A stretch of 33,067 nt of DNA from Embleya scabrispora DSM 41855. Its GTDB lineage: Bacteria; Actinomycetota; Actinomycetes; Streptomycetales; Streptomycetaceae. The DNA is taken from positions 1 to 33,067 of the forward strand of contig NZ_KB889729.1 of assembly GCF_000372745.1 (NCBI RefSeq), given 5' to 3'. Of this stretch, positions 2,494-21,084 are shown piece after piece. Below the pieces are notes generated by a model. The model was not told the DNA's origin, ran no database searches, and worked only from the letters and a program-made list of their open reading frames with translations. Numbering within the stretch: position 1 is the stretch's first letter; each line of letters starts with the position of its first letter. The translations under genes were made by a program, and so were the position numbers.

Positions 2494-4536
2494 TCACGGT
2501 GATGTGCCCGTTCGCGTAGGCCGCGGCACCGGGCCACTCGGATTCGGTATCAGAACCCGTCCCCACGGATCGGTGGTGGGCACCACCCGCGACCACACCT
2601 TGAACGCGTTGCCTCCCCCCGCGGTCTCGAACGGGCCGGGGAAGGGCACGCTGCCGGATCGCCGCACGCCCAGGAAGTCCGTCGAAACAGACATGGCCGA
2701 GCCGTCGGGATTCGTGAAGGGCTGATTCGGCCGCGGGGCGTTCGCCAGTGACCCGGTGCTCACGACCGCTTGCGTCGACCGCCACGACTCGACCCGTGGC
2801 ACGGTCAGGTACCAACCGTCCGACCGCTTGACAAGCGCCGGCGAGTAGGCGACGGATGACGCGTCGACCCCGCCTTGCTCCCTGGCCGACCTTGTCGAAC
2901 CGCTGGTGAAGACATTCGCCTTCATCGAGATCGGGAAATCGCTACTCGCGGAGTCCCAGCCGGAAAGATCAGTCGCGCCGCCGATGATGTTGTTGTGCCA
3001 CTGATGGGCGCCGAGCGGGATGGAAGCGTTCGCCACCGTGGTCGTGGTGTGCGGTTGAAAGTAAGGTGTTTGTCGCTCGTCGTCGAGAGCGTCGATGGAT
3101 CCGGTCAGCAGGTTGTGCGCCCCGGCCAAGCCGTCGCTGTTGCATCGGAGCGCGGTCGGCGACAACATGACGTTGTTGGCGATCAGGAGCGGACCGTGAT
3201 CGACCTCGGTGAAGATGTCCAGGTGGTTGGTGTGCAACAGGTTGCCCACGACGCGGGTGCCCTGCGCCATCCAGTCCAACCAGATTCCTCCGAAGTCGGG
3301 GGCGTCGTAGATGTGGTTGCCGGAAATCTCGACATCCATCGCGGCGTGCAGCTTGATGCCCGCCATTTCGGCGCCGCTCCAGATGCCCTGGTCGTTGATG
3401 TGGTAGATCTCGTTGCCGGTGATCCTGCTGCCGATCGCGCCGAGCGAGCCCACGACACCGACTTGCCCGCAGTGGTGGATCGTGTTGTCGCGCACGATGT
3501 GGCTGCCGATGTTCGCGAACGACCACCCGCCACTCGATTGCGCGTCGGAGATCGTGAGGTAGTAGCCGTCGGTGGTGCCACGGGTGCCGTCGTACCGGTC
3601 CGAGTACTTGCCCAGGGCGACGCCCGCGCACCTGGCGTAGGCGATCTCGTTGTTCTCGATGATCCAGCCCTTGCACCAGTGGGCGCTCACGAGCCCCCAC
3701 TGCCCCATGGTCGGCGCGGCCCAGTTCGAGGCGGCGTTGAGCAGTTTGAAGCCGCGAATCGTGATGTAGTCGTAGTTCGTCGCGGCCGGTTTGAACACCG
3801 AGCCGCGAACGCCCACTTCGACCGCGCCGTGGTTGGGGTGGGCACCCGGGAACTTGGCGGTCAGCGTGGTGAACCCGGTCTCGCTGTAGGTCGGTTCGTA
3901 GGTCGGCGGGGTGCCTTCGACAAGGCCGTCCACACTCGACCACCAAGACGCGGTCGCGTTCGAGGTCACGGCGGCGAGGCTCGTCGCTTCGGGCAGCCAG
4001 GCGCCGTCGAGGTACACCATTCCGAGGCGGTGGATTCGGTCATGCGAGTAGAACCAGTCGCCGTGTACTTGTTCCGCGTAAGGGTTGAACCCGTTGAAGT
4101 ACGAGTTCGGGATTCGCAGTTGCCAGACGTCGCCGGAGACCCGGGTCCAGCGGGTGAAGACGTCGGAGCCGGTGATCGTGACGGCGGCCCCGGTGTCCGC
4201 CGCGTAGGTGATGCGGGCGGCGTCACCGGCACCGCCCTTCGGAAGGATCACCTCTTCTCGGTAGATTCCGCTGCGCACCAGGACGGTGTCACCCGGTTGG
4301 GCACGCTTCGCGGCTGCCTGGATCGTGCGCAGTGGCGCGGAGCCGGTGCCCGCGGCGCTGTCACGACCGTTTGTCGCGACGTAATAGGTGGTGCCGGTGA
4401 CCGCGGCCGCGGTGGCCGAGTCGGTGCCCACCGTGTTCGCGAGAGCCACTCCTGCCGAAGTCATCGCGCTCACCTCGAGGAAGGTGTGGCGCGAGAATTC
4501 CCGCCGCTTGACGGATTCTTCATTGTGCTCGGTCAT
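2494..4536 (-). CDS. Secreted right-handed parallel beta-helix protein (polysaccharide lyase/hydrolase-like)
   Basis: A 680-residue protein. The N-terminus KRREFSRHTFL followed by an alanine-rich segment looks like a twin-arginine-type export signal, although the core pair reads R-H instead of R-R. The mature part opens with YYVATNGRDSAAGTGSAPL, then TIQAAAKRAQPGDTVLVRSG, the usual start of DUF1565/pectate-lyase-like helices. From about residue 230 to 480 come repeated short strands with asparagines typical of beta-helix coils (WIIENNEIAYARC, HIVRDNTIHHCGQ, SRITGNEIYHIND, DVEISGNHIYDAP). The family acts on extracellular polysaccharides. The exact activity cannot be read from sequence, and no catalytic residues were assigned. 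It ends the leftward arm of the sugar locus, which suggests it releases the imported sugar outside the cell. A 285-base gap separates it from the upstream SDR gene. Confidence 0.82.
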   Translation of the reverse strand: MTEHNEESVKRREFSRHTFLEVSAMTSAGVALANTVGTDSATAAAVTGTTYYVATNGRDSAAGTGSAPLRTIQAAAKRAQPGDTVLVRSGIYREEVILPKGGAGDAARITYAADTGAAVTITGSDVFTRWTRVSGDVWQLRIPNSYFNGFNPYAEQVHGDWFYSHDRIHRLGMVYLDGAWLPEATSLAAVTSNATASWWSSVDGLVEGTPPTYEPTYSETGFTTLTAKFPGAHPNHGAVEVGVRGSVFKPAATNYDYITIRGFKLLNAASNWAAPTMGQWGLVSAHWCKGWIIENNEIAYARCAGVALGKYSDRYDGTRGTTDGYYLTISDAQSSGGWSFANIGSHIVRDNTIHHCGQVGVVGSLGAIGSRITGNEIYHINDQGIWSGAEMAGIKLHAAMDVEISGNHIYDAPDFGGIWLDWMAQGTRVVGNLLHTNHLDIFTEVDHGPLLIANNVMLSPTALRCNSDGLAGAHNLLTGSIDALDDERQTPYFQPHTTTTVANASIPLGAHQWHNNIIGGATDLSGWDSASSDFPISMKANVFTSGSTRSAREQGGVDASSVAYSPALVKRSDGWYLTVPRVESWRSTQAVVSTGSLANAPRPNQPFTNPDGSAMSVSTDFLGVRRSGSVPFPGPFETAGGGNAFKVWSRVVPTTDPWGRVLIPNPSGPVPRPTRTGTSP

Positions 4537-4821: not shown

Positions 4822-5640
4822 TCAGTCAAGCGGGAAGAGGCCGGCGCCCCCGTCGACCACTAGCGTGGACCCCGTCATGTACGAGGCGAGGTCGGAGCAC
4901 AGGAACAGGAAGGCGTCCGCGACGGACTCGGCGGTCTGCAGGTGGCCGAGCGGAATGGCGCGTTCGGCCCGGGCCCGGTAGTCGGGGTCGGTGTCCCACT
5001 GGCGTTTGGCCATGCCGACCCCCACGATGCCCGGCGAGATCGCGTTGCTGCGGATCCGGTACGGGGCCAGTTCCCTGGCGAAGCTCCGCATCAGCGACTT
5101 GATCGCGGCCTTGGACGCGCCGTACGGGGCGATGCCCGGCCACGGCACGTCGGACACCCAGCTGGTCGTGAAGATCAGGTGCCCGGGTTCGTTGTGTTCG
5201 CGCCACATCGCCGCGGCGGCCCGGGCGACGAGGAAGCTCCCCGTGACGTTGACGGCCTGGATCGTGTGGAAGGTCTGGAGGGGAAAGGTCTCGACCGGAT
5301 GCGCGTCGCCGACGACACCGGCGTGGCAGCACACGATGGTGGGTCGGGCGCCGAGCCAGTCGATGGACTGCGACACCGCCTCGCGCACCCTCTCGGCGTT
5401 CGTCACATCGCAGCGCCGGTAGCGCACCCGCGGATGCGACGGGAGTTCGGCGCGGTCCTCGGGGACCGTGTCCAGTACTCCGACGATCGCGCCGTGCTCG
5501 CTCAGGCGCTCGATGATCGCTCTCCCCAGACCGCCGAGTCCGCCGGTGAGCAGGACCACGTGTCCGGTGAGGTCGAGTCGGGATCGCATCCGGGCATCGC
5601 GTCGGTTCGTCGGCGAGGCGACGTCGGGCTTCGTGTTCAT
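4822..5640 (-). CDS. Short-chain dehydrogenase/reductase
   Basis: A 272-residue classical SDR: nucleotide-binding TGGLGGLG at 32-39, an acidic strand end at D57 in VLD (usually an NAD preference), CHAG at 105-108 replacing the usual NNAG, N131, S160 in TTSW, and the Y173-x3-K177 pair in PYGASK. All catalytic residues are present. The start at 5640 is chosen because AAGGAAG lies just upstream. An in-frame ATG at 5658 overlaps the stop of the dehydrogenase gene (ATGA) but has no ribosome-binding site. It follows the zinc dehydrogenase directly and is clearly co-transcribed. In the Caulobacter xylose pathway the first enzyme is an SDR, so a sugar 1-dehydrogenase role is plausible but inferred. 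A polyol or keto-acid oxidation step is the alternative. Confidence 0.9.
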   Translation of the reverse strand: MNTKPDVASPTNRRDARMRSRLDLTGHVVLLTGGLGGLGRAIIERLSEHGAIVGVLDTVPEDRAELPSHPRVRYRRCDVTNAERVREAVSQSIDWLGARPTIVCCHAGVVGDAHPVETFPLQTFHTIQAVNVTGSFLVARAAAAMWREHNEPGHLIFTTSWVSDVPWPGIAPYGASKAAIKSLMRSFARELAPYRIRSNAISPGIVGVGMAKRQWDTDPDYRARAERAIPLGHLQTAESVADAFLFLCSDLASYMTGSTLVVDGGAGLFPLD

Positions 5641-5654
5641 GGCGACTTCCTTTG

Positions 5655-6707
5655 TCATCTGCAGTCGATCGCGACTTTGAGCGTTTCCGCGGACGGTTCC
5701 GACAACAGCGGCAGTGCGACGCCGACGAGATCCGGAAGTGGGACACGATGCGTGACCAGGCCACGTGCGTTCAGTCGTCCGTCGGCCAGCATCCGCACCG
5801 CCTGGGTGACGTCGACGTCCCAGACGTGCGCGGCCGAGCCGAGTAGTCGCCGCTCCGCGAGCACGAGAGCCGGCAGGGGCAGCGGCGGGGAGTCGACGCC
5901 GAGGCCGACCGCGACCACGGTGCCGCCGGGGCGTACCAGGGTCAGGGACCGTTCGATCTGTCCGGGTGCGCCGCTGCACTCGTAGACGACGTCGACGCCC
6001 GGATCCCCGAGTTCGCCGACCAGCGTGTCCAGCCCGTCGGGCGCGCAGGCCCGCACGGCCGAGTGCGACGCGGCGAACTCGCGGCGGAACGGGCTCGGGT
6101 CGACGATCCAGCAGTTCGCCGCGCCGCAGGCCAGAGCGGCCTGGGCGGTCAACTGGCCGATGGTTCCGCCACCGATGACGATCGCGGTGGCGCCGATGGG
6201 ATCGGGGGTCTTGCGTACCGCGCGTACCGCCACCGCGGCCGGTTCGGCGAGGACCGCGTCGTCCGTGCTCAGCCCGGACGGCAGCGGAACACAGGTCCGG
6301 GCGCGCGCCACCATGAATTCGGCCAGCCCACCGTCGTCCTGTTGACCGGGGACCGACAGCTTCGGGCACAGTCCGTCCTCGTGGCGCCGGCACCACCAGC
6401 ACATGCCGCAGCCGTTGACCACATCGGGTACGACGAGGGTTCCCACGGCCGGTCCGCTGCCGTCCCGGGCCGCTTCGACGACTTCGCCGACGACTTCGTG
6501 GCCCAGGGTCAGCGGTGCCATGCGTCCGCTGAGCGGATGCGGCTCCGATACGGGGATGATGAGCGGCCCGTTGCGGTATTCCTCCAGGTCGGTGCCGCAG
6601 ATGCCGCACCAGTGCACCTTGACCAGGAGTTCGTCGTCGCGTCGGGGACGAGGCTCGACGTCTTCGATCCGGATGTCCCCGCGGCGGTGCCATCGCGCGG
6701 CAAGCAT
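5655..6707 (-). CDS. Zinc-dependent medium-chain dehydrogenase (butanediol/sorbitol-dehydrogenase-like)
   Basis: A 350-residue MDR enzyme. Catalytic zinc ligands are visible as C37 (CGICGTD), H70-E71 (LTLGHE) and E155 (AEPAA). The structural zinc site is complete as C100, C103, C106 and C114. The Rossmann motif GGGTIG is at 179-184. The loop HPLSGRMAPLTLGHE before the zinc site is like that of 2,3-butanediol and polyol dehydrogenases. The ATG at 6707 follows GAAGGGACTGCCC, a good ribosome-binding site; upstream codons in the same frame are not used. It is first in the leftward operon and overlaps the possible upstream start of the SDR gene. Probable role: NAD(P)-dependent oxidation of a sugar, polyol or sugar acid in the locus. 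In Sulfolobus, D-arabinose is oxidised by an enzyme of this superfamily. The substrate here is unknown. Confidence 0.9.
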   Translation of the reverse strand: MLAARWHRRGDIRIEDVEPRPRRDDELLVKVHWCGICGTDLEEYRNGPLIIPVSEPHPLSGRMAPLTLGHEVVGEVVEAARDGSGPAVGTLVVPDVVNGCGMCWWCRRHEDGLCPKLSVPGQQDDGGLAEFMVARARTCVPLPSGLSTDDAVLAEPAAVAVRAVRKTPDPIGATAIVIGGGTIGQLTAQAALACGAANCWIVDPSPFRREFAASHSAVRACAPDGLDTLVGELGDPGVDVVYECSGAPGQIERSLTLVRPGGTVVAVGLGVDSPPLPLPALVLAERRLLGSAAHVWDVDVTQAVRMLADGRLNARGLVTHRVPLPDLVGVALPLLSEPSAETLKVAIDCR

Positions 6708-6777
6708 GGGCAGTCCCTTCGGATGTCGGGAACGCGGACGGCCGGCGAAGTCTCGCGGGACGCTCCGAGTGGCCGGG

Positions 6778-6806
6778 AGCCTAGTGCGGTCAGACCGGTT
6801 TGACCA
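6778..6806 (-). promoter_or_regulatory. Candidate leftward promoter overlapped by operators
   Basis: On the minus strand TAGGCT (6783-6778) matches an actinomycete -10 box, with TGGTCA (6806-6801) 17 bases upstream as a weak -35. This predicts a transcript start near 6771 and a leader of about 63 bases before the dehydrogenase ATG. Two palindromic operator-like sites (6788-6796 and 6797-6805) fill the spacer and most of the -35. Confidence 0.4.
6788..6805. promoter_or_regulatory. Two adjacent FadR/GntR-type operator palindromes
   Basis: GGTCAGACC (6788-6796) is followed directly by GGTTTGACC (6797-6805). Both fit the GGT-NNN-ACC core that FadR-subfamily GntR regulators are known to bind. They lie between the divergent dehydrogenase and regulator genes. 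Bound repressor would cover the candidate leftward promoter. Confidence 0.65.
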
Positions 6807-6832
6807 GGTGCCGTTTTTGTCGGCCGAAACCG

Positions 6833-6861
6833 TTGACGGGCGTGTTTCGGGATGGCGATAC
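6833..6861 (+). promoter_or_regulatory. Rightward promoter giving a probable leaderless GntR mRNA
   Basis: TTGACG (6833-6838) and CGATAC (6856-6861) are separated by exactly 17 bases, a good SigA/HrdB-like promoter. Transcription would start about 8 bases after the -10, at or next to A6870, the first base of the regulator's ATG. No ribosome-binding site precedes that ATG, consistent with a leaderless message. Confidence 0.6.
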
Positions 6862-6869
6862 TCCGTGGC

Positions 6870-7715
6870 ATGACCGGTCAGACCAATCATTCGACCAATG
6901 CCGGATCGACGCCGCCGTCAGGCGCCGAACTCGCAGCGCTGCTGGAGGATCGCCTCGTGGGGGAGGAGTGGCCCCCCGGGGCGTGGCTTCCCTCCGAGCG
7001 GGCATTGGCGCTCCAGTACTCCGTCAGTCGTCCCGTGATCCGGGAAGCGCTGAGGTCCCTACAGGAACGAGGCTTGATCGGCGTCGCGCCGGGCCGTGGC
7101 AGCTTCGTCCGGGAAGTACGGCCGACCAGCGACGGCGGGGATCCGCTGCTGCTGGTGCGGCGGGGCGAGGTCACCGCGCGGCATCTGGTGGTGGCTCGCG
7201 TCATGTTGGAGGGACAGGCCGCGGCGCTGGCCGCGCAGTACCGTTCCGAGGACGACCTGGCGCACATGCGCCGGATCCTCGCCGACTTCGAGCGCCAGTC
7301 GGTGCTGTCGACCGCGGCGGATCTGGACGTGGCCTTCCACGAGGCCATCGCCATCGCCTCGCGGAACCCGGTCATCCAGATCATGTTCGGATCGATCAGG
7401 CCGTTGACCCACGGGGTGGTGCTGCGCAGTCTCACCGACCGGGCCGTCAGCGGTGCGGCCGTGCCGCTCCACGCCGTGATCCTGGACGCGATCGCGAACG
7501 GGGACCCCGATGTCGCCCGCGCGGCGATGACCGAACACATCGAGGCGGCGCAGTACTTCTACGGACCCGATCTCGACGTCGCCCTGACCGACGTGCTCAG
7601 GCGCCGCGCGGCACGCGCGCCGGATGTCGCGTCGGTGCTGAGCGAGGTCAGCAGGTCCATCGCCGACCTGCCCGCATATGGCCGGCCGGTAAGCCCGCCG
7701 ACCGAACCGAAGTGA
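6870..7715 (+). CDS. FadR-subfamily GntR transcriptional regulator
   Basis: A 281-residue regulator. The N-terminal winged helix-turn-helix spans about residues 14-78 (LPSERALALQYSVSRPVIRE, then LQERGLIGVAPGRGSFV). The C-terminal FCD ligand-binding domain follows with its usual metal-site pattern: D and H in LDVAFHEAIA, H in PLHAVILDAI and H in TEHIEAA. FCD regulators commonly bind sugar acids or other small carboxylates, which fits the locus; the inducer is unknown. ATG 6870 is chosen over ATG 6852 because the -35/-10 pair at 6833-6861 overlaps 6852 and predicts a transcript beginning at 6870. The gene heads the rightward operon, 10 bases before the ABC ATPase gene, and is flanked and overlapped by three matching palindromes. 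It is therefore the likely repressor of both arms. Confidence 0.9.
   Translation: MTGQTNHSTNAGSTPPSGAELAALLEDRLVGEEWPPGAWLPSERALALQYSVSRPVIREALRSLQERGLIGVAPGRGSFVREVRPTSDGGDPLLLVRRGEVTARHLVVARVMLEGQAAALAAQYRSEDDLAHMRRILADFERQSVLSTAADLDVAFHEAIAIASRNPVIQIMFGSIRPLTHGVVLRSLTDRAVSGAAVPLHAVILDAIANGDPDVARAAMTEHIEAAQYFYGPDLDVALTDVLRRRAARAPDVASVLSEVSRSIADLPAYGRPVSPPTEPK
6876..6884. promoter_or_regulatory. Third operator copy at the GntR start codon
   Basis: GGTCAGACC, identical to the site at 6788, lies 6 bases inside the GntR gene (about +7 to +15 of the predicted transcript). This is where a bound repressor would block its own promoter, so autoregulation is likely. Confidence 0.6.
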
Positions 7716-7725
7716 GAGGACCCAG

Positions 7726-8532
7726 ATGCGTGTTCTGGAAGTCGCCGACATCCGCAGGAGATTCGGCGGTGTCGAGGCGCTGCGCGGGGTGAGTCTCGGT
7801 ATCGACGAAGGCGAAGTCGTCGGCCTGATGGGCGACAACGGCGCCGGGAAGTCGACGCTGATGAAGGTACTGTGCGGATCGGTTCGGCCCGACTCCGGCA
7901 CCATGACGCTGGACGGCAAGCCGCTGTCCCTGCGAAGTCCGCGGGACGCCGCGGCGCACGGCATCGCCGTGGTCTATCAGGATCTCGCGCTGGTCGATCA
8001 GCGCGACGTGGCGACCAACGTGTTCCTGGGCCGGGAGCCCAGACGGGGGCTGGTGGTCGACCGGCGCCTGATGCGCCGTGAGGCTCGTACGGTGCTGGAC
8101 GAACTGAGTATCCGCATCCCGTCGGTACGGCTGCCGGTCGGCGGTCTGTCCGGAGGTCAGCGACAGTGCATCGCGATCGCCCGGGCGGTGCACCAGGGCG
8201 GCCGGATCGTGCTCCTCGACGAGCCGACGGCCGCGCTCGGACCGGAGCAGCAGGCCAACGTCCTCAAGCTCATCAAGACCTTGAAGGAGCGCGGCACCGC
8301 GGTCATCGTGGTCAGCCACAACGTCGACCACGTGCTCGCGGTGGCCGACAGGGTGGTCGTGATGCGTGCCGGGCTGGTGCAGGGTGTGCGTGACGTTCAT
8401 TCGACGAGCGCGGCCGACGTGGTCGGCCTGATCCTCGGGAGCGTCGCCGCCGACGCGATATCCCATGGGCACGGCGGACCGGCCACGGCCGTCGCGTCCG
8501 GGCTCGAAGTCGAGACGAGAGGCGCGCGATGA
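7726..8532 (+). CDS. Sugar ABC transporter ATP-binding protein (single-domain, FrcA-like)
   Basis: A 268-residue ATPase with Walker A GDNGAGKST, Q-loop in VVYQDLALVDQ, signature LSGGQRQCIAIARA, Walker B IVLLDEPTAAL and H-loop VVSHN. It has one nucleotide-binding domain. Most carbohydrate importers of the ribose/xylose (CUT2) class use a fused double-domain ATPase, whereas fructose-type FrcA is single, so this one would work as a homodimer. GAGAGG precedes the ATG by a normal spacing. The stop overlaps the permease start by 4 bases, indicating translational coupling. Function: energises import of the sugar or sugar acid consumed by the downstream enzymes. Confidence 0.93.
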   Translation: MRVLEVADIRRRFGGVEALRGVSLGIDEGEVVGLMGDNGAGKSTLMKVLCGSVRPDSGTMTLDGKPLSLRSPRDAAAHGIAVVYQDLALVDQRDVATNVFLGREPRRGLVVDRRLMRREARTVLDELSIRIPSVRLPVGGLSGGQRQCIAIARAVHQGGRIVLLDEPTAALGPEQQANVLKLIKTLKERGTAVIVVSHNVDHVLAVADRVVVMRAGLVQGVRDVHSTSAADVVGLILGSVAADAISHGHGGPATAVASGLEVETRGAR

Positions 8533-9542
8533 CGACCATGACGGTGCCGGGCGCGCCGAGAGTCGACAAGGACGCCGACCCCGGCGTGCTGCGCAAGGCT
8601 CTGGGCGCCCACGAATTCGGCGTCCTGGCCGCGACGGTCGCCATTTTCCTGTACGGCACGTTCTTCGTGAACAACTTCCTGACCGGCGACAACCTGCTGT
8701 CGGTTGTTCAGCAGATCACCTTCATCGGCATCATCGGCACCGGGATGACGCTGCTGATCGTCGCCGGGGAGATCGACCTGTCGGTCGGCTCGCAGTACGG
8801 CTTCCTATCGGTGCTGATGGCCTACTCGGTGACCCAGTGGCAGTTGCCGATCCTGGTCTCCGCGCTGCTGGTGATGGCCCTGGGCGTGGTCACGGGCGCC
8901 ATCTACGGGGTGATCACCGCGGTCTTCAAGGTGCCCTCCTTCGTGGTCACCCTCGCCGGCCTGGCCATCCTGCGCGGCTTCGCCCTGCTGGTCACCGACG
9001 GTCAGCCGCTGCAGGGGTCGACGAACTCCGCGTACCACAGCCTGGTCGGCGGCAATGCGATCGGCTCGCTGGCGGCGCAGACCGTGTGGATGGTGGCGGT
9101 CATGGCCGCCTTCGGCTGGATCCTGTCCCGGACGAAATTCGGGTACGACGTCTATGCCACCGGTGGCAACATGAAGGCCGCGTTGAACGCCGGCATCCGC
9201 GCGGTGCGCGTCAAGATCCTTTGTTTCTGCATCACCGGAGCGTTGTGCGGCCTCGCCTCGGTGATCCTGGTCGGCTGGCTCGGCAGCGCCAACCCGCTGA
9301 CCGGTAACGGCGTCGAACTGAGCGTCATCGCGGCGGTCGTGGTCGGCGGGGCGAGCCTGACCGGCGGCGTCGGCAGCGTCACCGGGACCCTGTTGGGGGC
9401 GCTGGTGGCCGGGTTGATCGGCAACCTGCTGGTTCTCATCGGTGTCGACGGCAACTGGCAGCAGGTCGCCACGGGCGCCCTGATCCTGGCCGCCGTCCTG
9501 GTCAACCGTTTCATCGCCACCCGACAAGCCGCGATGCGCTAG
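8529..9542 (+). CDS. Sugar ABC transporter permease (RbsC/FrcC-like)
   Basis: A 337-residue integral membrane protein of the BPD_transp_2 class. Hydrophobic spans alternate along the whole length, beginning around residue 35 (VLAATVAIFLYGTFFV). The family motif GEIDLSVGSQYG follows the second span, and VVVGGASLTGGVGSVTGTLL lies near the C-terminus. These are hallmarks of ribose/fructose-type permeases. The ATG overlaps the ATPase stop. It would form the membrane channel as a homodimer with the single-domain ATPase. The binding protein follows after 136 bases. That gap contains a small GC hairpin (CCCGG/CCGGG near 9638) but no clear terminator. Confidence 0.93.
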   Translation: MTTMTVPGAPRVDKDADPGVLRKALGAHEFGVLAATVAIFLYGTFFVNNFLTGDNLLSVVQQITFIGIIGTGMTLLIVAGEIDLSVGSQYGFLSVLMAYSVTQWQLPILVSALLVMALGVVTGAIYGVITAVFKVPSFVVTLAGLAILRGFALLVTDGQPLQGSTNSAYHSLVGGNAIGSLAAQTVWMVAVMAAFGWILSRTKFGYDVYATGGNMKAALNAGIRAVRVKILCFCITGALCGLASVILVGWLGSANPLTGNGVELSVIAAVVVGGASLTGGVGSVTGTLLGALVAGLIGNLLVLIGVDGNWQQVATGALILAAVLVNRFIATRQAAMR

Positions 9543-9678
9543 GTTCCGGCCCTCTCCTCACGTCGCCGTCCCACCGGCTTCGACTCCTCCTTCCTTCGGC
9601 CGAATCGCACTCACCGGTTTCAGCATCGTGCCCTGCCCGGAATCCGCCGGGATCAGACACTCAAGCACGGGAGCAGCC

Positions 9679-10737
9679 ATGTCCATCGCAAAGGGCGGAT
9701 CGTCCGCAAATCTCACACGTCGAGGCATCCTCGGCGGCAGTCTGGCGCTGGCGGCCGGGGCCACCCTGTCCGCCTGCAAAGCGGGGTCGAAATCCGACTC
9801 GGACTCGGCCACGTCCGCAGCCGGAGGAACGCCGACGGCCGGCAAGAAGGTGATCTTCGTCGTGCACGAGAAGAACACCTTCTTTGCGCCCGTGCAGAAG
9901 GGCTTCGAGACCTTCGGCAAGGCGGCGGGCTGGTCCACCCAGTTCATCGGTCCGCCGCAATTCGACCAGGCGACCGTGGTCAACATGATGCAGAACGCGG
10001 TCAACGCCAAGCCGGACGGCCTGATCCTCACGCGCATCGACACCACGTCCTACGACGGCGTCATCAAGGCGGCGCAGGAGGCAGGCATCCCCGTCATCCT
10101 CTCCAACGTCGCCAGCGATGGTTACGAGAAGTTGGGCGTCGGCTTCGTCGGCCAGGACTTCGTTCCCGCCGGGATCGCCGCCGGGCAGCAGATCCTGCAG
10201 TACATCGCCAAGCACACGGGCCGCAGGGACGGCGCGATCATCGTCGGCAAGATCCAGGCCGGGAATTCCGCGCTCGAACAGCGCGGCCAGGGCATCAAGC
10301 AGGCGGTCCGTGACTTCAACAGTGCCAACGGCACGAACTTCACCACCGAGGACCTGATAGTCGGCACCGAGGAAGCCGGCGCCGTGGCGAAGATCGACGG
10401 CCGCCATGCCCGCGACCCGCGCTCGGTGGTCGGCTGGGCCGGTACGGCCTTCGAGTGCCAGTTCGTGGCGACCTGGGCCAGGAGCAAGAACCTGGTCGGC
10501 AAGTTCGCCAACGGCGGATTCGACATGACCTCGCCGGTGCTCGCGGGTATCAAGGACGCCAGCATCGACTACACCATCGGCCAAAACCCCTGGGCCCAGG
10601 GCTGGGTCGCCGCTTCGCTGCTCGCCCAGCAGATCTTCCCCGGCTACCCGTCCTTCCACTACGACACCGGCGCCGAGATCGTCGACTCCACCAATGTGGC
10701 GAAGGTGTCCGCCCGCGAGGCGAAGCTGACGTCCTGA
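9679..10737 (+). CDS. Sugar ABC transporter substrate-binding lipoprotein
   Basis: A 352-residue periplasmic-binding-protein-like lipoprotein (Peripla_BP_4 type). The N-terminus has a twin arginine (LTRRGILGG), a hydrophobic stretch and the lipobox LSAC with the acylated Cys33, so it is probably exported folded and anchored to the outer face of the membrane. The mature domain opens with KKVIFVVHEKNTFFAPVQKG and contains GLILTRIDTTSY and AGIPVILSNV, as in ribose/xylose-type binding proteins. ATG 9679 is preceded by GGGAG; earlier in-frame codons would destroy the signal peptide. It supplies ligand to the permease/ATPase encoded just upstream. The ligand is not deducible. Confidence 0.93.
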   Translation: MSIAKGGSSANLTRRGILGGSLALAAGATLSACKAGSKSDSDSATSAAGGTPTAGKKVIFVVHEKNTFFAPVQKGFETFGKAAGWSTQFIGPPQFDQATVVNMMQNAVNAKPDGLILTRIDTTSYDGVIKAAQEAGIPVILSNVASDGYEKLGVGFVGQDFVPAGIAAGQQILQYIAKHTGRRDGAIIVGKIQAGNSALEQRGQGIKQAVRDFNSANGTNFTTEDLIVGTEEAGAVAKIDGRHARDPRSVVGWAGTAFECQFVATWARSKNLVGKFANGGFDMTSPVLAGIKDASIDYTIGQNPWAQGWVAASLLAQQIFPGYPSFHYDTGAEIVDSTNVAKVSAREAKLTS

Positions 10738-10820
10738 AGCGGGTCCGGCGTGACCCGAGGATGCCCCCCGCCACGGCCGCCTTGGAAGCCGTCCGGTCGG
10801 CCGGGACGATCGGACCCGCT
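10738..10820 (+). promoter_or_regulatory. Structured intergenic RNA after the binding-protein gene
   Basis: AGCGGGTCCG at 10738-10747, starting at the end of the stop codon, is the exact reverse complement of CGGACCCGCT at 10811-10820. The enclosed 63 bases contain a second stem (ACGGC...GCCGT around 10774-10790). No U-run follows, so a classic terminator is unlikely. A stabilising or attenuating structure that keeps binding-protein mRNA more abundant than the downstream enzyme mRNA is plausible. Confidence 0.5.
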
Positions 10821-10897
10821 CCGACGCCCTCATGAGGGGCTGCGCGGCAAGCGAGGCCGGAATTCTCACCGACGATAGGAAAGGCGAGTGATTTCGA

Positions 10898-12097
10898 GTG
10901 CGCGTTGTCGCATTGGAGACGCTGCGACCCCGGTTCCAGAAGAACCTGTGCGTCGTCGTTCTGCACACCGACGAGGGCGTCGTCGGGCTCGGCGATGCCT
11001 TTCTGCAGTCCGCCGCAGTCGAGGCGTATCTGCATTCCCACGTCGCCCCCCTGCTGTTCGGACTGGAGGAGCCGACCCCCGAGGCGGTCTCGCTCCTGCT
11101 CGCTCCGTACGTCGGCTTCCAAGGCGGCGGCGTGGAGATGCGCGCCAACGGTGCCGTGGACGTGGCCCTGTGGGACCTGCTGGGCCAGTACACGGGGCAA
11201 ACGGTGGGGCGCCTGCTCGGCGGTCCGGTGCGGGACACCATCGACGTCTACAACACCTGCGCAGGACCGGGCTACATCCAGAACACCTCCCGGCAGGCCT
11301 CGTCCAACTGGGGCCACGCGCACGGCGACTACGAAGACCTACACGCGTTCCTCACCAAGCCCCGCGACCTCGCCAAGGAGTTGCATGCCGAGGGGTTGCG
11401 GGGGATGAAGGTCTGGCCGTTCGACCGCGCCGCGGAAAGGACCGGGGGAAACCGCATCACTCCGGCGGACCTCGACAGCGCGCTTGCCGTGGTCCGGGAC
11501 ATCCGCGACGCGGTCGGCATGGACATGGACCTGATGGTCGAACTGCACGGGTTGTGGTCGCGCCGGGCGGCCGTCGAGATCTGCCGGGCCCTGGAACCGT
11601 ACCGGCCGTTCTGGGTGGAGGACCCGATCCGCCCGGACGCGGTGGAGTCGATCGGCGCGCTGTCCCATGAGGTCGGCGTGCCGATCGCGACCGGGGAGAC
11701 GGCCGTCGGTCGGCGGGGATTCCTCCCGCTGCTGCAACACGGGAGGATCGCCTACGCCACGGTCGACGTGCAGTGGACCGGCGGCCTGACCGAGGCGCGC
11801 AAGGTCGCCAACCTCGCCGACACGTTCTCGATACCGGTCGCGCCGCACGACTGCACCGGGCCGATCACCCTGGCCGCCTGCTTCCACCTGGCGATGGCAC
11901 AGCCCAACGCCTTCATCCAAGAGACCGTCCGCGCCTTCCTGCGGACCTGGTACCCGCGCGTGGTCACCGGTCTGCCCGAGATCCACAACGGGATCGCCAC
12001 TTCGTCCGCCGATCCCGGGCTCGGGCTGCGCCTCGCGGACGGTTTCCGGGAAGACCCCGACACCGCTCGGCGGATCACCGGCATCGAGAAATCCTGA
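10898..12097 (+). CDS. Enolase-superfamily sugar-acid dehydratase (galactonate-dehydratase-like)
   Basis: A 399-residue MR/MLE-type enzyme: an N-terminal capping domain, then a barrel with K171 (GMKVWPF), metal ligands E215, E241 (WVEDP) and E267 (TGET), H217 in VELHG and H317 in APHDCTGPI. The spacings +26, +26 and +50 from the first ligand equal those of E. coli galactonate dehydratase as I remember it (D183, E209, E235, H285, with H185), except that the first ligand is Glu. Such enzymes abstract the C2 proton of an aldonate and eliminate the C3 hydroxyl, giving a 2-keto-3-deoxy acid. Archaeal xylonate and arabinonate dehydratases belong to the same superfamily. The start is GTG 10898, after AGGAAAGG. 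It lies directly upstream of the FAH-fold enzyme that would use its product. Confidence 0.9.
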   Translation: MRVVALETLRPRFQKNLCVVVLHTDEGVVGLGDAFLQSAAVEAYLHSHVAPLLFGLEEPTPEAVSLLLAPYVGFQGGGVEMRANGAVDVALWDLLGQYTGQTVGRLLGGPVRDTIDVYNTCAGPGYIQNTSRQASSNWGHAHGDYEDLHAFLTKPRDLAKELHAEGLRGMKVWPFDRAAERTGGNRITPADLDSALAVVRDIRDAVGMDMDLMVELHGLWSRRAAVEICRALEPYRPFWVEDPIRPDAVESIGALSHEVGVPIATGETAVGRRGFLPLLQHGRIAYATVDVQWTGGLTEARKVANLADTFSIPVAPHDCTGPITLAACFHLAMAQPNAFIQETVRAFLRTWYPRVVTGLPEIHNGIATSSADPGLGLRLADGFREDPDTARRITGIEKS

Positions 12098-12129
12098 TCG
12101 ACAATCGCGCGACGAACAAAGGACTGACC

Positions 12130-13005
12130 GTGAAACTGGTGCGTTACCTTGGCGATACCGGCCGGGCGCGGGCGGCGGTGCTCGACGGCGACGTCGTTCA
12201 CCCGCTCCCGGTTCCCGACATGGCGACCCTGCTCCGGTACCGCGTCGCCGAGATCAGGGAGTTGATCGACCGGGCGACGACGGCCGGCGCCGGCCTGTCC
12301 CTGGGCGAGGCGCCGCTGCCGGCGCCGATCGACGGGCGAACCGAGGTGTGGGGCGCCGGCGTGACCTACCTGCGGTCGCGCTCGGCCCGCGTGGAGGAAT
12401 CCCCGTACGGACTCGTCTACGAAGACGTGTACGACGCGGCGCGGCCGGAGCTGTTCTTCAAGTCCGCCGCCTGGCGGGTACGCACGGACGGCGAGCCGGC
12501 CGGGATTCGCCCCGACTGCGACGACACGGTGCCCGAGCCGGAACTGGCCCTCGTACTCAACCGGCACGCGGAGATCGTCGGCGCGCTGGTGTGCAACGAT
12601 CTCACGGCGCGCGGCATCGAGGCGGAGAATCCGATCTACCTCCCGCAGGCCAAGCTCTACCAAGGAAGCTGTGCGCTGTCCGCCGGGATCGTCCCATGGT
12701 GGGCGATCGCAACGCCCGAGGACCTGTCCGTCGCCATGGAGATCCGCCGCAACGGCGCCGTGGTGTTCAGCGGCGAGGCTCGCACCTCGACGATGAAGCG
12801 CACGTACACCGAACTCGTCGAATGGCTGTTCCGGCCCGACGAGTTCCCCGACGGCGTCGTCCTCAGTACCGGTACCGGCATCGTGCCCCCGCTCGGCGAC
12901 GGACTGCGGCCGGGGGACGTGGTCACCGTGTCCATCGATCAGGTCGGCACCCTGACGAACACCATGACCGAGGCCCGGCCGCTCGCGGGGGGCAGCGCGT
13001 CATGA
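12130..13005 (+). CDS. FAH-family 2-keto-3-deoxypentonate dehydratase (XylX/KdaD-like)
   Basis: A 291-residue protein of the fumarylacetoacetase fold. The diagnostic stretch is GAGVTYLRSRSARVEES, then VYDAARPELFFK with K111. Metal ligands follow as E136 and E138 (VPEPELALV) and D157 (NDLTARG), then ENPIYLPQAK with K175. This combination is what I recall from Caulobacter XylX and Sulfolobus 2-keto-3-deoxy-arabinonate dehydratase, which convert the C5 keto-deoxy acid to 2-oxoglutarate semialdehyde. A 2,4-diketo-acid hydrolase role as in fucose degradation is the main alternative. The start is GTG 12130 after AAAGGA; the longer open frame upstream lies within the dehydratase gene. The stop overlaps the aldehyde dehydrogenase ATG (ATGA), giving tight coupling. 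Confidence 0.88.
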   Translation: MKLVRYLGDTGRARAAVLDGDVVHPLPVPDMATLLRYRVAEIRELIDRATTAGAGLSLGEAPLPAPIDGRTEVWGAGVTYLRSRSARVEESPYGLVYEDVYDAARPELFFKSAAWRVRTDGEPAGIRPDCDDTVPEPELALVLNRHAEIVGALVCNDLTARGIEAENPIYLPQAKLYQGSCALSAGIVPWWAIATPEDLSVAMEIRRNGAVVFSGEARTSTMKRTYTELVEWLFRPDEFPDGVVLSTGTGIVPPLGDGLRPGDVVTVSIDQVGTLTNTMTEARPLAGGSAS

Positions 13006-14525
13006 CCGTCATCAGTACCAACCCGGTGGACGACAGCGTGGTCGGCGAGGTCGCGGACACCTCGCCGGAGGAACTCCGGGCCGTCCTGACGAAGGCGGCG
13101 TCGGCAACGCCCGTGACGGCCTCCGCCGGAGCAGCCGACCGCGCGGCATGGATGCGCGCGGTCGCGGATGCCCTCGACCGGCGCGCGGAAGAACTGGTCG
13201 AGCTGGCCGATCGGGAGACCGCCCTGGGGACACCGCGTCTCGTCGGCGAACTGGCGCGCACTACCGGGCAGTTGCGATTCCTGGCGGCCCACGCCGAAAC
13301 TGCGGAACCCTTCCGGCCGACACTCGACACGCCCGACCCGCAGTGGGTCCCCACTCCTCGTCCGGATCTGCGGTCGCTCCGGGTCGCCGTCGGTCCGGTC
13401 CTGGTGTTCGCGGCGGGCAACTTCCCCTTCGCCTTCAGCGTCGCCGGGGGCGACACCGCCGGCGCCTGGGCGGCAGGCTGCCCGGTCGTCGTCAAAAGTC
13501 ACCCGGGGCATCCGCTGCTGTCGGTCGCGGTCGCCGACACGATCGACGCCGCCCTCGCCGCGAGTGGCGCGCCCTCGGGCATGTTCGCTCTCATCCACGG
13601 CCTCCACACCGGTGTCGCCGCCCTGTCCGCACCGGAAATCGCCGCCGGGGCGTTCACCGGATCCGTGTCCGGCGGTCGCGCGCTCCACGCCATCGCGGCC
13701 GGTCGGCAGACCCCGATCCCATTCTTCGCCGAGATGGGCAGTGTCAACCCGGTCGTGGTGACCGAGCGCGCGAGCCGGGAGCGCGTCGAGGAGATCGCCG
13801 CCGGTTTGAGGACGTCCTTCCTGCTGGGGGCGGGCCAGTTCTGCACCAAGCCCGGCCTGATCCTGATCCCGGCCGACAGCGAACTGCCCGACCGGCTCGC
13901 AGCGCTGATCGCCGACCTTCCGGCACCGGTGATGCTCAACCTCGGCATGCGCGACCGGCACCGTTCGCTTCTCAGAGATTTCCTTTCGCACGAATCCGTG
14001 CAGCTGTCGGCGACCGGCCGGGAACCGGTCGGCCAGACCGGGGCCCACGAGCGGATCTCGGTTGCCGCGACCACGGCTCGCGCGCTGCTGGCCGATGTCG
14101 ACGCGCTGACCGAAGAACATTTCGGGCCCAGCACCGTGTTCGTCACCTACACCTCGACCGAAGAACTGCACGACGTGCTCGCCGCGCTGCCCGGATCGTT
14201 GACCGGCAGCGTGCAGCGCGGTACCGGAGAGGACGTCGCCGATCTGGTCGGCGAACTCGCCGCACGGGTCGGGCGCGTCCTGGTCGACGACTGGCCCACC
14301 GGGGTCGCCGTCAGCTGGGCCCAGTTCCACGGCGGCCCTTACCCCGCCTCGACCGACTCCCGACACACCTCGGTGGGCTCCGCCTCGATCGGCCGATTCC
14401 TTCGCACCGTGGCGTACCAGAACATGCCGCAGGACGCGCTGCCGCCGTGGCTGCGAGACGCCAATCCCGACGCGGTGCTGCGGCGGATCAACGGCACCCT
14501 CACCACCGATCCGGTGCGGCCGTGA
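13002..14525 (+). CDS. 2-oxoglutarate-semialdehyde (2,5-dioxovalerate) dehydrogenase-like ALDH
   Basis: A 507-residue aldehyde dehydrogenase with all catalytic elements: N140 in AGNFPFAFS, K165 in VVVKSHPGHP, the cofactor loop AFTGSVSGG (217-225), E244 in FAEMGSVNPV and the nucleophile C281 in GAGQFCTKPG. The pattern GNFPFAFSVAGGD together with KSHPGHP is the one seen in ketoglutarate-semialdehyde dehydrogenases rather than in generic betaine or succinate-semialdehyde enzymes. It would complete the pathway by oxidising the FAH product to 2-oxoglutarate with NAD(P). ATG 13002 overlaps the FAH stop and its own stop overlaps the lactonase GTG, so three enzymes are translated as a coupled block. 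Confidence 0.92.
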   Translation: MTVISTNPVDDSVVGEVADTSPEELRAVLTKAASATPVTASAGAADRAAWMRAVADALDRRAEELVELADRETALGTPRLVGELARTTGQLRFLAAHAETAEPFRPTLDTPDPQWVPTPRPDLRSLRVAVGPVLVFAAGNFPFAFSVAGGDTAGAWAAGCPVVVKSHPGHPLLSVAVADTIDAALAASGAPSGMFALIHGLHTGVAALSAPEIAAGAFTGSVSGGRALHAIAAGRQTPIPFFAEMGSVNPVVVTERASRERVEEIAAGLRTSFLLGAGQFCTKPGLILIPADSELPDRLAALIADLPAPVMLNLGMRDRHRSLLRDFLSHESVQLSATGREPVGQTGAHERISVAATTARALLADVDALTEEHFGPSTVFVTYTSTEELHDVLAALPGSLTGSVQRGTGEDVADLVGELAARVGRVLVDDWPTGVAVSWAQFHGGPYPASTDSRHTSVGSASIGRFLRTVAYQNMPQDALPPWLRDANPDAVLRRINGTLTTDPVRP

Positions 14526-15382
14526 CGACCCGGGAGACCATCGGCGCCCGCCGGTTCACCGAAGTCGTGACCGACCACGGCGAAGGACCGGCATGGCTGG
14601 ACCGGTGGGGCCTGTGCGTGCTGGACATGCTCGTCGGCGACCTGGTCCTGATCGACGCGTCCGGAACGGTCTCCCGCCGCGCCAACGTCGGCCCCGTGGT
14701 CGCGGCCGTGCGCGAACGGCGCGGCGGCGGTCTGGTCGTCGGTGTGGAGCGCGGCTTCGCAATGCTCGACGAGGACTTGTCCGTCACCGAGTCGATCGAG
14801 TGCTGGACCGATCCGAGCGTCCGCATGAACGACGGGGGTTGCGATCCGCAGGGCCGGTTCTGGTGCGGATCCATGGCCTATGACCTCACCCCCGGTGCCG
14901 GCGCGTTGTGGCGGTTGGACCCCGACAGGGCAACCGGGTTGCTCGTGCCGGATGTCGGGTGCTCCAACGGCCTGGCTTGGACCCGGGACGGTTCACGCGC
15001 CTACCACGTCGACAGCCTGACGAATCGGGTGGACGTGCTGGAGTTCGCCGCCGACGGGACGATCGCGAGCAGGTCGCCATTCCTCGACGTCACCGGGGAA
15101 GGGTTCCCCGACGGGATCGCAGTGGACCGCGAGAACGGCGTCTGGCTCGCCCTGTTCGGCAGCGGCCGTTTGATCCACGCCGATCGGTACGGCCGCCGCG
15201 ATGCCGAGATCACGGTGCCGGCGGCGCAAGTGACGGCATGTACCTTCGGCGGTCCGGACTTCGACGAGCTCTACATCACCACCTCCCGCTACCGGCTCAC
15301 CGATCCGGAGCCGGCTGCCGGGGCGGTATTCGTGGCCGAACCGTCGGTCGGCGGATTCGCGCCGTTCGGATTCTTCGGCTGA
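14522..15382 (+). CDS. SMP-30/gluconolactonase-family sugar lactonase
   Basis: A 286-residue six-bladed propeller lactonase. The metal-site residues of the family are in place: E21 in HGEGPAW, N149 in CSNGLAW and D197 in FPDGIAVD, with the substrate-side N103 in VRMNDGG. In oxidative sugar routes this enzyme opens the aldono-lactone made by the sugar dehydrogenase. It is a lone last gene here, but its GTG overlaps the aldehyde dehydrogenase stop (GTGA), so it belongs to the operon. The protein ends in PFGFFG, near the usual length for the family. Cytosolic: no signal peptide. Confidence 0.92.
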   Translation: MTTRETIGARRFTEVVTDHGEGPAWLDRWGLCVLDMLVGDLVLIDASGTVSRRANVGPVVAAVRERRGGGLVVGVERGFAMLDEDLSVTESIECWTDPSVRMNDGGCDPQGRFWCGSMAYDLTPGAGALWRLDPDRATGLLVPDVGCSNGLAWTRDGSRAYHVDSLTNRVDVLEFAADGTIASRSPFLDVTGEGFPDGIAVDRENGVWLALFGSGRLIHADRYGRRDAEITVPAAQVTACTFGGPDFDELYITTSRYRLTDPEPAAGAVFVAEPSVGGFAPFGFFG

Positions 15383-16587: not shown

Positions 16588-17730
16588 TCACGGGCCGCAC
16601 AGCGCAGCGGCCAGCACCGCCTCCACGGCCCGGCGTTGGGCGTCGTCAGGCTTCAGGCCCAGCGGGTTGTAGGACACGGCGACGCTGCGGCGTCCGTCCT
16701 CGGTGGTCCAGAGTTCGGTCATGAATCCGGGTGCGCCGCCGGGGTGGCCCCACACCGACTTTCCGCAGGGCAGAACTTCCGATTCCAGGCCGAGGCCGTA
16801 TCGGTACGGCGCGCCCGTGTCGATCGTGTCGGTCATCTCGCGCAGTTGCGCGGGCCGGAGCAGGCGGCCCGTCGCCAGGGCGCGGATGAATCGGGTCAAG
16901 TCCCGGCCGGTGGAGAGGATTTCGCCGGACGCGCCGGCCTGGGAGGCGTTGAACTCGGTGACGTCGATCGGCTGCGGCACGAGTTCCGCGTACGCGTGGG
17001 CGTGCGGTCCCGGGATCGTGGCGGACGTGCCGGGGAAGGTCGTGTGTGTCATGCCGAGCGGCCGCAGCACGCGCGCGGTGACCTCGTCCGCGTAGGTACG
17101 ACCGGTGACCTTCTCGATCAGCATCCCCGCGAGGATGTAGTCGGTGTTCGAGTAGCGGTAGCCGGTGCCCGGCTCGAAGTACGGCGGCTGCCGGACACCG
17201 GCGGCGACCTTGTCCTTTGCCGTCCAGGTCTGCCAACGGCCGCGCAGATACCAGTTCTCGCTGCCGATATCGAGTGCGTACACGTAGTCGTGGATGCCCG
17301 CCTGATGTCGGAGGATCTGCCGTACGGTGATCCCGGCACCGCCCGGCACCACGCCCGGCAGGTGGTGCTCGATCGGGGTGTCCAAGCCGATCCGGCCCTC
17401 GTCGACGAGTTGCAGGACCACGGTCGCGATGAACGTCTTGGTGGTGCTGCCGATGCGGAAGGTCGCGTGGGGGCGCATCGGCGTGTTGCCGACGTGGTCC
17501 GCGATTCCGGCGGCGAGCGCGCGGTGTGCCCCGTCGCTGTCGACGCGCACGAGGGCAGCGGTGGCACCGGCGCCGACGACGGCGTCCAGGGCGTGGCGGA
17601 GTTTGTCTCCGCCTCGGGTCGGCGACCCCGCTGCAGGAACGGCTCCCGTCGCGGGCGGGATGGATAAGGCCGCGACGAGTCCCCAGCCGGTGATCAGGGC
17701 GCCGATGCGCCTCTTCGTTCCACTTCTCAT
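16588..17730 (-). CDS. Secreted serine hydrolase, beta-lactamase class C / DD-carboxypeptidase fold
   Basis: A 380-residue precursor with a Sec-type signal (KRRIGALITGWGLVAALSIP, then PATGA). The three active-site motifs of the class C/R61 group are present: S95-T-T-K98, Y193-S-N195 in YRYSNTDY, and H329-P-G331 in WGHPGGAPGF. These act on peptidoglycan stem peptides, beta-lactams or unrelated esters; the sequence does not choose between them. FEPGTGYRYSN is especially common in secreted streptomycete carboxypeptidases. AGGACGG precedes the ATG. The gene lies 109 bases downstream of the FtsX-type permease on the same strand, so the two may be co-transcribed as a cell-envelope pair. Confidence 0.9.
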   Translation of the reverse strand: MRSGTKRRIGALITGWGLVAALSIPPATGAVPAAGSPTRGGDKLRHALDAVVGAGATAALVRVDSDGAHRALAAGIADHVGNTPMRPHATFRIGSTTKTFIATVVLQLVDEGRIGLDTPIEHHLPGVVPGGAGITVRQILRHQAGIHDYVYALDIGSENWYLRGRWQTWTAKDKVAAGVRQPPYFEPGTGYRYSNTDYILAGMLIEKVTGRTYADEVTARVLRPLGMTHTTFPGTSATIPGPHAHAYAELVPQPIDVTEFNASQAGASGEILSTGRDLTRFIRALATGRLLRPAQLREMTDTIDTGAPYRYGLGLESEVLPCGKSVWGHPGGAPGFMTELWTTEDGRRSVAVSYNPLGLKPDDAQRRAVEAVLAAALCGP

Positions 17731-20398: not shown

Positions 20399-21084
20399 CG
20401 CTTCGGCTCCTCACACGACCGAGCGACAACGGCTGCTCCACCGGGCGAGTTCTCGTACGGGCGGGCCGCCGCTTGGCGGGGACGCCGGAAGTCCCCCATG
20501 GAGACCCGGGGTTCCCGGTCGGGCTCACCCTCGGCGTTGCCGTGCGGCAGGCGACGCACACGGCCCGGCCCCGGAACCGGTCGAATGCCGCAGTGCCCGG
20601 GGGACCGAAGCGACACCCGAAGGTCGCCGGGATTCCCCTGCCCCGCGTCCCACCCGTGTCGTGCGCGCGAGCATCGAGCCCACCGACTCCCCACAGGGTC
20701 CGTCGAGCCCCCAGCGGCGTCGAAATGGACCAACCCGGCCGCCACGACACCGGACAAGGCCGCGTCACGGACGCCCCCGCAGCGCGCCGCCCACTCGGCC
20801 GTCTCCTCCGCCACAGGAGCACCCACCTCCCGTCCCATCGACAGGCCGTTGCGTCGGGCCTCGCCGGCGCACCGAATGAAGTGGCGCCGTGTTCGCGTTC
20901 GTTTCATGGCTCCACGCTCGTCGTTTCGGGCGCGACGGGCGTCGGCCCACGGGCGTGTTCGTGCCGTCCGTGGCCTGTCGCACCGGGCGCGGTGCGCACG
21001 TCCGCCCGGTACGTCCCCTGTCGACACTCCGACCTACGCCCACGAGCGGACGCAGTGTCCACGCAACCGGGTTAGGTTCCGGGT
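20399..21084. other. Gap between permease and two-component system
   Basis: 686 bases with no recognisable gene, where an ABC ATPase gene would be expected. A leftward frame starting at ATG 20907 (MKRTRTRRHFIRCAGEARRN...) has a nearby GGAG but no family features. TAGGTT at 21073-21078 is a fair -10 box placing transcript start close to the GTG at 21085, so the sensor-kinase mRNA may be leaderless. No good -35 is visible. Confidence 0.4.

Follow-up and report, generated by a model that had tools for sequence, protein, structure and literature searches.

Many bacterial aldopentonate dehydratases belong to the IlvD/EDD family, the archaeal enzymes are typically members of the enolase superfamily and, according to a 2022 review, a crystal structure was still lacking for aldopentonate dehydratases of the enolase type (PMC9795676). 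The same review describes the iron-sulphur (Fe-S) D-xylonate dehydratase of Caulobacter as rate-limiting in the Weimberg and Dahms pathways. The xylXABCD genes of Caulobacter crescentus combine a dehydrogenase, a lactonase, xylonate dehydratase, XylX and a semialdehyde dehydrogenase, in the available parts of PMC6475665 and PMC9795676. The locus described here, in a stretch of 33,067 nucleotides from Embleya scabrispora DSM 41855 (NZ_KB889729.1, positions 1 to 33,067; contig C168, the draft genome totalling 11.4 Mb; the whole stretch is hereafter the window), follows the same logic, but its dehydratase is an enolase-superfamily protein, unlike the Fe-S IlvD/EDD enzyme of C. crescentus. Its member of the fumarylacetoacetate hydrolase (FAH) superfamily resembled KdaD and shared 29% identity with a protein of 390 residues in locus L079, taken to be XylX-like. 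As far as the accessible accounts go, the D-xylose pathway of Haloferax volcanii and the D-arabinose pathway of S. solfataricus also use an enolase-superfamily dehydratase, and S. solfataricus has KdaD as well. Haloterrigena pHTUR02 carries SMP-30, short-chain dehydrogenase/reductase (SDR), alcohol dehydrogenase, enolase, aldehyde dehydrogenase (ALDH) and FAH genes together, as does the window; the distance to the haloarchaeal proteins was measured on Haloterrigena (enolase 26%, ALDH 24% over 298 residues) and on Haloarcula (enolase 24%).

Oxidative use of xylose by an actinomycete has been published before, for plasmid pAO1 of Arthrobacter nicotinovorans, which to judge by the title is like the window in this respect (Mihasan et al. 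2013, via PMC6305408). The pen operon of Rhodococcus jostii RHA1, which an evolved strain over-expressed when grown on xylose, shares with the window a FadR/GntR regulator, an ATP-binding cassette (ABC) importer, an SDR, an FAH protein and ALDHs, but it has a xylulokinase, an enolase-type dehydratase is absent from the gene list in the accessible text, and its authors propose a phosphorylating role together with a xylose reductase route (PMC11998424). The pen operon was rejected as the same system. Salmonella xynABC was also discarded as a counterpart, its predicted dihydroxy-acid dehydratase belonging to a different family. The present gene set was not described in any title or abstract opening among the matches listed from the full-text literature searched, a collection that most subscription journals lie outside. 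Judged from its sequence, the locus is most likely a Weimberg pathway with an unusual bacterial enolase-type dehydratase.

Two divergent gene groups flank a 144-base gap. The leftward group comprises the zinc-dependent dehydrogenase, the SDR and, after 285 bases, a beta-helix gene of glycoside hydrolase family 120 (GH120), while the rightward group (6852-15382) runs from the regulator to the SMP-30 gene, with 4-base overlaps between the ATPase and permease, FAH and ALDH, and ALDH and SMP-30 genes. The genes that the first-pass annotation had named within 4822-15382 were all found there as open frames, and every one of the ten proteins passed the cut-off of one or more Pfam families. The features are listed below, with start codons picked in the present analysis.

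2494-4536, minus strand: predicted GH120 beta-xylosidase (PF21258; PDB 3vst), its N terminus resembling a twin-arginine signal by eye (KRREFS...)
4822-5640, minus strand: SDR dehydrogenase, candidate aldose 1-dehydrogenase (adh_short_C2, E 8e-50; YxxxK motif at 173)
5655-6707, minus strand: medium-chain zinc-dependent dehydrogenase, alternative or second candidate aldose dehydrogenase (Pfam ADH_N, ADH_zinc_N)
6787-6806, no strand: palindromic operator TGGTCAnACCGGTnTGACCA with 1 mismatch, a probable site for the FadR/GntR regulator (pattern search)
6866-6885, no strand: weaker second operator copy at the beginning of the regulator gene, with 3 mismatches (pattern search)
6852-7715, plus strand: FadR-type regulator, GntR and FCD domains (PF00392, PF07729)
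7726-8532, plus strand: single-domain ATPase of a CUT2-type sugar ABC transporter (NCBIfam matches below cut-offs)
8529-9542, plus strand: CUT2-type ABC permease (PF02653, E 6.5e-35)
within 9628-10737, plus strand: sugar-binding lipoprotein with, by eye, an RR signal and an LSAC lipobox (PF13407, E 5.6e-38)
10898-12097, plus strand: enolase-superfamily sugar-acid dehydratase, proposed D-xylonate dehydratase (PF13378, E 1.7e-57)
12130-13005, plus strand: putative FAH-superfamily 2-keto-3-deoxy-D-pentonate dehydratase, KdaD type, GTG start (2q18 match)
13002-14525, plus strand: NADP-type ALDH, proposed alpha-ketoglutaric semialdehyde dehydrogenase (PDB 3v4c, 1eyy)
14522-15382, plus strand: SMP-30 family lactonase, GTG start (PF08450, E 4e-61)

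The gene set and its order, the protein families, the catalytic residues, the conservation of the operator and the link to GH120 were directly observed, and from them we infer the substrates, the export of the xylosidase, the direction of the steps, the regulation, the choice of xylose dehydrogenase and the enzyme activities. The window probably holds a self-contained locus for the use of D-xylose, or xylo-oligosaccharides, by the Weimberg route to 2-oxoglutarate. The exported GH120 beta-xylosidase would release D-xylose from plant xylan outside the cell and the CUT2-type ABC importer would take it in. Either the SDR or the zinc-dependent dehydrogenase would then oxidise D-xylose to xylonolactone, which the SMP-30 enzyme would open, and the enolase-superfamily enzyme would convert D-xylonate to 2-keto-3-deoxy-D-xylonate. 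The KdaD-type FAH enzyme would form 2-oxoglutarate semialdehyde from the latter, and the ALDH would oxidise this to 2-oxoglutarate. Candidate genes for all five steps of the pathway were present together. The first-pass annotation had proposed a five-step conversion of a pentose or C5 acid to 2-oxoglutarate, and for a pentonate the KdaD-type FAH, with an ALDH that appears to fit the last step, supports it. Active-site motifs were found in the enolase, FAH, ALDH, SMP-30, zinc-dependent dehydrogenase and SDR proteins; key residues were intact, as had been claimed, wherever a motif was checked, with one departure by eye, the CHAG of the SDR in place of the NNAG of most classical SDRs.

The sugar had been left open in the first-pass annotation, and the gene at 2494-4536 was absent from its gene list. 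The cluster extends beyond 4822-15382 to 2494 to include this gene, whose product matched PF21258 with 73.8 bits (cut-off 27) and had the xylosidase 3vst as its sole PDB match (E 2.1e-111). The two matches identify the beta-helix protein as GH120, and its assignment as a fucosidase or an arabinan enzyme was dropped. Its Asp382 and Glu405 aligned with Asp421 and Glu444 of 3vst, which we take to be the catalytic residues of that enzyme, so that the insertion domain and the catalytic Asp/Glu pair of a GH120 beta-xylosidase were both found. In this family the Asp is the nucleophile and the Glu the acid/base, and the two characterised members mentioned in the accessible text are both beta-xylosidases (PMC6887791). 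PF21258 had no other match in the genome, and a GH120 protein was encoded in 2 of the 391 genomes sampled from the order, its own included. In the related Streptomyces loci L012 and L080 the GH120 gene lies on one strand with its neighbours, 41 bases after the SMP-30 gene and 38 before the SDR gene (ORF-caller coordinates in L080: SMP-30 ends at 19404, GH120 19446-22280, SDR from 22319). This position within the operon suggests D-xylose as the likely sugar of the window locus, although the linkage of GH120 to D-xylose use is circumstantial. It is a minor possibility, and on balance unlikely, that the same route to 2-oxoglutarate serves another pentose, L-arabinose or D-arabinose. Activity on a p-nitrophenyl arabinoside, reported for a GH120 xylosidase, is in keeping with this alternative, but from arabinoxylo-oligosaccharides the enzyme freed xylose only, in the portion of the report available (PMC7142710).

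The best solved relative of the FAH enzyme was S. solfataricus KdaD (2q18, E 1e-53), aligned over residues 14-283, essentially its full length. In an alignment of 19 FAH proteins, the Glu/Glu/Asp/Lys set, presumably the metal site, was kept in the window protein. According to the accessible text of Watanabe et al., a dehydratase-specific glutamate distinguishes such enzymes from the cleaving hydrolases, which have a catalytic His/Glu pair (PMC6336799). The glutamate was kept in the window protein (Glu107, aligned to KdaD 114) and the hydrolase histidine was absent, while YcgM and a second Priestia FAH protein in the same alignment had the NYxxHxxE-type histidine. These residues disfavour an L-fucose-type route, in which the second dehydrogenase would oxidise C4 of the 2-keto-3-deoxy acid, the FAH enzyme would cleave the diketo acid to pyruvate and the ALDH would oxidise the freed aldehyde. 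The two dehydrogenases of the cluster would suit that scheme and the FAH superfamily does contain such hydrolases (PMC6336799, in the part available), but the nearest solved relatives of the ALDH, 3v4c and 1eyy, and its score of only 54.8 bits against the lactaldehyde dehydrogenase model (cut-off 650) also speak against it, and we regard it as improbable.

The Weimberg assignment of the ALDH is based on 3v4c (E 1e-94) and 1eyy (E 1e-92), the next PDB match being at 9e-15. Their PDB names read only aldehyde dehydrogenase; we take both to be like alpha-ketoglutaric semialdehyde dehydrogenase. Against GucD, the model for that enzyme, the window protein scored 72.8 bits (cut-off 770). ALDH relatives in Deinococcus (35%) and Runella (43%) stand alongside FAH proteins of the same type. 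The Deinococcus locus (L044, 7857-12299) combines a 43% identical FAH, an NADP-type ALDH and a D-xylonate dehydratase annotated as YjhG/YagF, and the Runella plasmid (L076, 9806-13985) has a 41% identical FAH with an NADP-ALDH and an altronate-dehydratase-family protein. By these comparisons, the FAH and ALDH pair is a predicted downstream unit with interchangeable dehydratases of the enolase, YjhG/YagF or altronate-dehydratase type.

At E <=1e-50 the FAH type was found in 12 of 391 genomes of the order, its own included, and in seven of the 11 others a weak enolase match (26-33%) lay nearby (region set L062-L065, L067-L070). These same-family genomes had a KdaD-type FAH 45-53% identical to that of the window. 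In L063 (9077-12816) the FAH (51%) adjoins an enolase that by eye resembles L-fuconate dehydratase, together with a major facilitator superfamily (MFS) transporter, and this pair possibly serves the use of D-arabinonate or L-fuconate. Such a neighbour favours another pentose as the substrate, as do the existence of FAH-type enzymes acting on 2-keto-3-deoxy-L-pentonate and the acceptance of D-arabinonate by L-fuconate dehydratase-type enzymes, both taken from the accessible part of PMC6336799. The closest FAH (L061, 9000-10211; 74-76% identical) had none of the other pathway enzymes in the 19.5 kb examined.

The dehydratase belongs to the MR/MLE enolase type by Pfam and not to the IlvD/EDD type usual in bacteria. 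It aligned nearly end to end with 4dx3 (E 2e-109), 2pod (E 4e-109) and 3dip (E 2e-84). These entries (4dx3/4dxk, 2pod and 3dip) share its active-site motifs by eye, with an unread residue directly after the conserved His in 3dip, and have PDB molecule names without a substrate. The earlier label of a GalD-like dehydratase was, as a specific claim, not supported. Its top NCBIfam match was indeed GalD (NF010624), but with 182.9 bits against a cut-off of 311, and it was 29% identical to E. coli DgoD; the archaeal arabinonate dehydratase model NF040866 gave 114.2 bits (cut-off 650). With 26% identity to the Haloterrigena enolase, it is by sequence close neither to GalD nor to the archaeal type. 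L-Arabinonate and D-galactonate, the substrate of the GalD family, share configuration, and the galactonate dehydratase match is thus a further point for another pentose.

A quick tree was built from 45 enolase-type proteins, partial or duplicate hits having been left out beforehand (L001, L003-L006, L008, L049, L054, L056, L059, L061, L062, L064-L071 and L080). The window dehydratase fell inside a bacterial clade of 38 rows (support 97), with DgoD, the haloarchaeal proteins and a fuconate-type protein outside, and within it formed a five-row group with L009-L012 (support 100). Long branches were flagged for DgoD, the fuconate-type and Haloterrigena proteins, L002, L007 and L039, and since several excluded proteins are among them, their exclusion is less sure than the support of 97 implies. 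On this tree, the enzyme is placed in a bacterial enolase subfamily. The claim that the set is closer to the archaeal enzymes stood for the FAH enzyme (about 40% identity to archaeal FAH enzymes) and failed for the enolase and ALDH, given their low identities to the haloarchaeal cluster; the archaeal likeness appears to be confined to the FAH enzyme and the superfamily choice of the dehydratase. An archaeal origin of the whole set was rejected on the same identities, that to DgoD and the bacterial clade.

More distant relatives of the dehydratase, at 46-47% identity, adjoin by eye a PfkB-like sugar kinase (L021) or a GH2-like protein (L023), neighbours that suggest hexonates there, and TRAP transporters stand beside other such relatives in Chelatococcus and Peteryoungia. 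With such differing neighbours, substrates probably vary across the wider clade. If the substrate of the window enzyme itself were a hexonate, for example D-galactonate or D-gluconate, the cluster would be a mixed assemblage. We consider this very improbable: L009-L012 carry FAH and SMP-30 near the dehydratase in all four cases and ALDH in three, and C6 acids are not known to give 2-oxoglutarate semialdehyde through these enzymes. Downstream of the dehydratase in Nonomuraea lactucae (L014, 11218-16400) lie another ABC importer, CUT1-like by eye, and a protein of 738 residues that matched no Pfam family.

The PDB and NCBIfam matches gave no decision on the substrate of either dehydrogenase. The best NCBIfam match of the SDR was glucose 1-dehydrogenase (172 bits, cut-off 215), and the zinc-dependent enzyme matched (R,R)-butanediol dehydrogenase best (E 7e-49) and also D-arabinose 1-dehydrogenase 2h6e (E 1e-15). 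For the SMP-30 protein the best PDB match was regucalcin (E 5e-32), with 7plb, a Smp-30/Cgr1 family protein, also among the matches (E 6e-25). The ATPase matched galactofuranose, xylose and arabinose ATPases (213-202 bits, each below its own cut-off) and the permease GguB, AraH and ribose permease models, also below cut-offs, while generic sugar- and ribose-binding proteins led the 39 PDB matches of the binding protein and gave no decision on its substrate.

The palindrome TGGTCAnACCGGTnTGACCA at 6787-6806 lies in the divergent promoter, where the FadR/GntR regulator would bind it and govern both arms. The expected number of matches to the pattern in the window at 3 mismatches was 0.08. Genome-wide, at 2 mismatches, the site was the sole match, but the reversed pattern gave 3 per strand, so uniqueness alone proves little. 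A survey of 47 sources, the window and 46 loci (861 kb), yielded seven matches at <=2 mismatches, two of them in the twin loci L012/L080; the reversed control gave none and 200 shuffled palindromes a mean of 0.02 (largest 2). The operator was upstream of the zinc-dependent dehydrogenase or regulator gene in the window, L009, L010 and L012/L080. In L013 and the Herbiconiux plasmid L045 it started 47 and 36 bases, respectively, ahead of the dehydratase, while L014 and L017 had two sites with 3 mismatches close to where the ABC ATPase begins. Since the window, L080, L009 and L010 had served to define the pattern, only L013, L014, L017 and L045 are independent. At <=3 mismatches the other 38 of the 47 sources, including the FAH-bearing L011, L016 and L020, had no site. 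The conserved 20-base palindrome suggests a single predicted regulon.

Scanning genome contigs for the dehydratase turned up 34 loci, of which some are truncated where a contig ends, and neighbours were scored at E <=1e-10. FAH lay near the dehydratase in seven (L009-L012, L016, L017, L020), accompanied by SMP-30 in 7/7, the zinc-dependent dehydrogenase in 6/7 and ALDH in 5/7. A search for the same gene order in other actinomycetes had been recommended; the order proved to be kept in L012 and the plasmid record L080 (Streptomyces NBC_01669 and NBC_00841), which match in gene content and identities and were counted as one. All 11 window proteins were matched in L080, at 56-85% identity. An IS110-type transposase gene (Pfam, L012) is located about 3.5 kb from the Streptomyces copy (L012, 150-1547; L080, 5152-6549), and the NBC_00841 copy sits on a 1.5 Mb linear plasmid. 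The importer binding protein and permease had no match in L009 (Nocardia) or L010 (Prescottella), where a 30% ATPase match about 10 kb away in L010 was the one found. Both instead have a sugar porter of the MFS upstream (PF00083, E 5e-102 and 7e-102), and its presence in place of the ABC genes makes it probable that a sugar, and not an acid, is imported. Closest to the window dehydratase were the enzymes of these two Nocardiaceae (84 and 83%), with the Streptomyces copy behind them at 78%, and at E <=1e-80 the enzyme occurred in one of 391 genomes of the order, taken to be the order of Streptomyces; that one was the window itself, making the enzyme rarer than GH120. This distribution points to acquisition of the cluster by horizontal transfer. 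Elsewhere in the window, a PF04072 (LCM) methyltransferase-family gene (363-1223, plus strand) lies past the 3' end of the GH120 gene, and a PF00144 beta-lactamase-family serine hydrolase (16588-17730) adjoins a large FtsX/MacB-type permease gene (17840-20398), both on the minus strand.

Several observations weigh against a D-xylose Weimberg locus, 1) none of the ten proteins reached an NCBIfam equivalog cut-off among the matches listed (the best 25 for the SDR, ATPase and ALDH), so that names beyond the family level are proposals, 2) the top NCBIfam model of the ALDH was a PutA-type glutamate-semialdehyde dehydrogenase (88.1 bits, cut-off 747) and not alpha-ketoglutaric semialdehyde dehydrogenase, 3) the sources examined gave no substrate for any member of the dehydratase subfamily, and the L021 and L023 neighbours suggest hexonates for its relatives, 4) the cluster has two dehydrogenases although a single one would do, 5) the GH120 gene is parted from the SDR gene by the 285 bases noted above and was present in 1 of the 34 related loci (L012), 6) relatives of the ALDH and SMP-30 proteins were found near FAH in 0 of the 11 other genomes (about 19 kb each, tblastn E <=1e-8) and 7) two xylose isomerase genes elsewhere in the genome scored above cut-off, which makes the pathway dispensable for the use of xylose as such. 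Two IlvD/EDD matches were also present, on contigs other than that of the window, and together with the isomerases they indicate that the route may be an extra, rather than the sole, way to use xylose.

A broader reading, which we put forward tentatively and hold to be possible rather than probable, is that the dehydratase and its bacterial clade, including 4dx3 and 2pod, are enolase-superfamily aldopentonate dehydratases, counterparts of XylD that are expected from the superfamily to lack an iron-sulphur cluster and have a bacterial origin apart from the archaeal enzymes. In actinomycetes they would be part of a movable module, governed by one FadR-type operator, that converts xylan fragments to 2-oxoglutarate. 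A bacterial enzyme of the enolase type, for which the superfamily leads one to expect a requirement for magnesium alone, could in practice replace the Fe-S dehydratase, and full-length relatives of such an enzyme have already been crystallised (4dx3, 2pod). If this reading is true, the PDB would already hold structures of the missing enzyme class.

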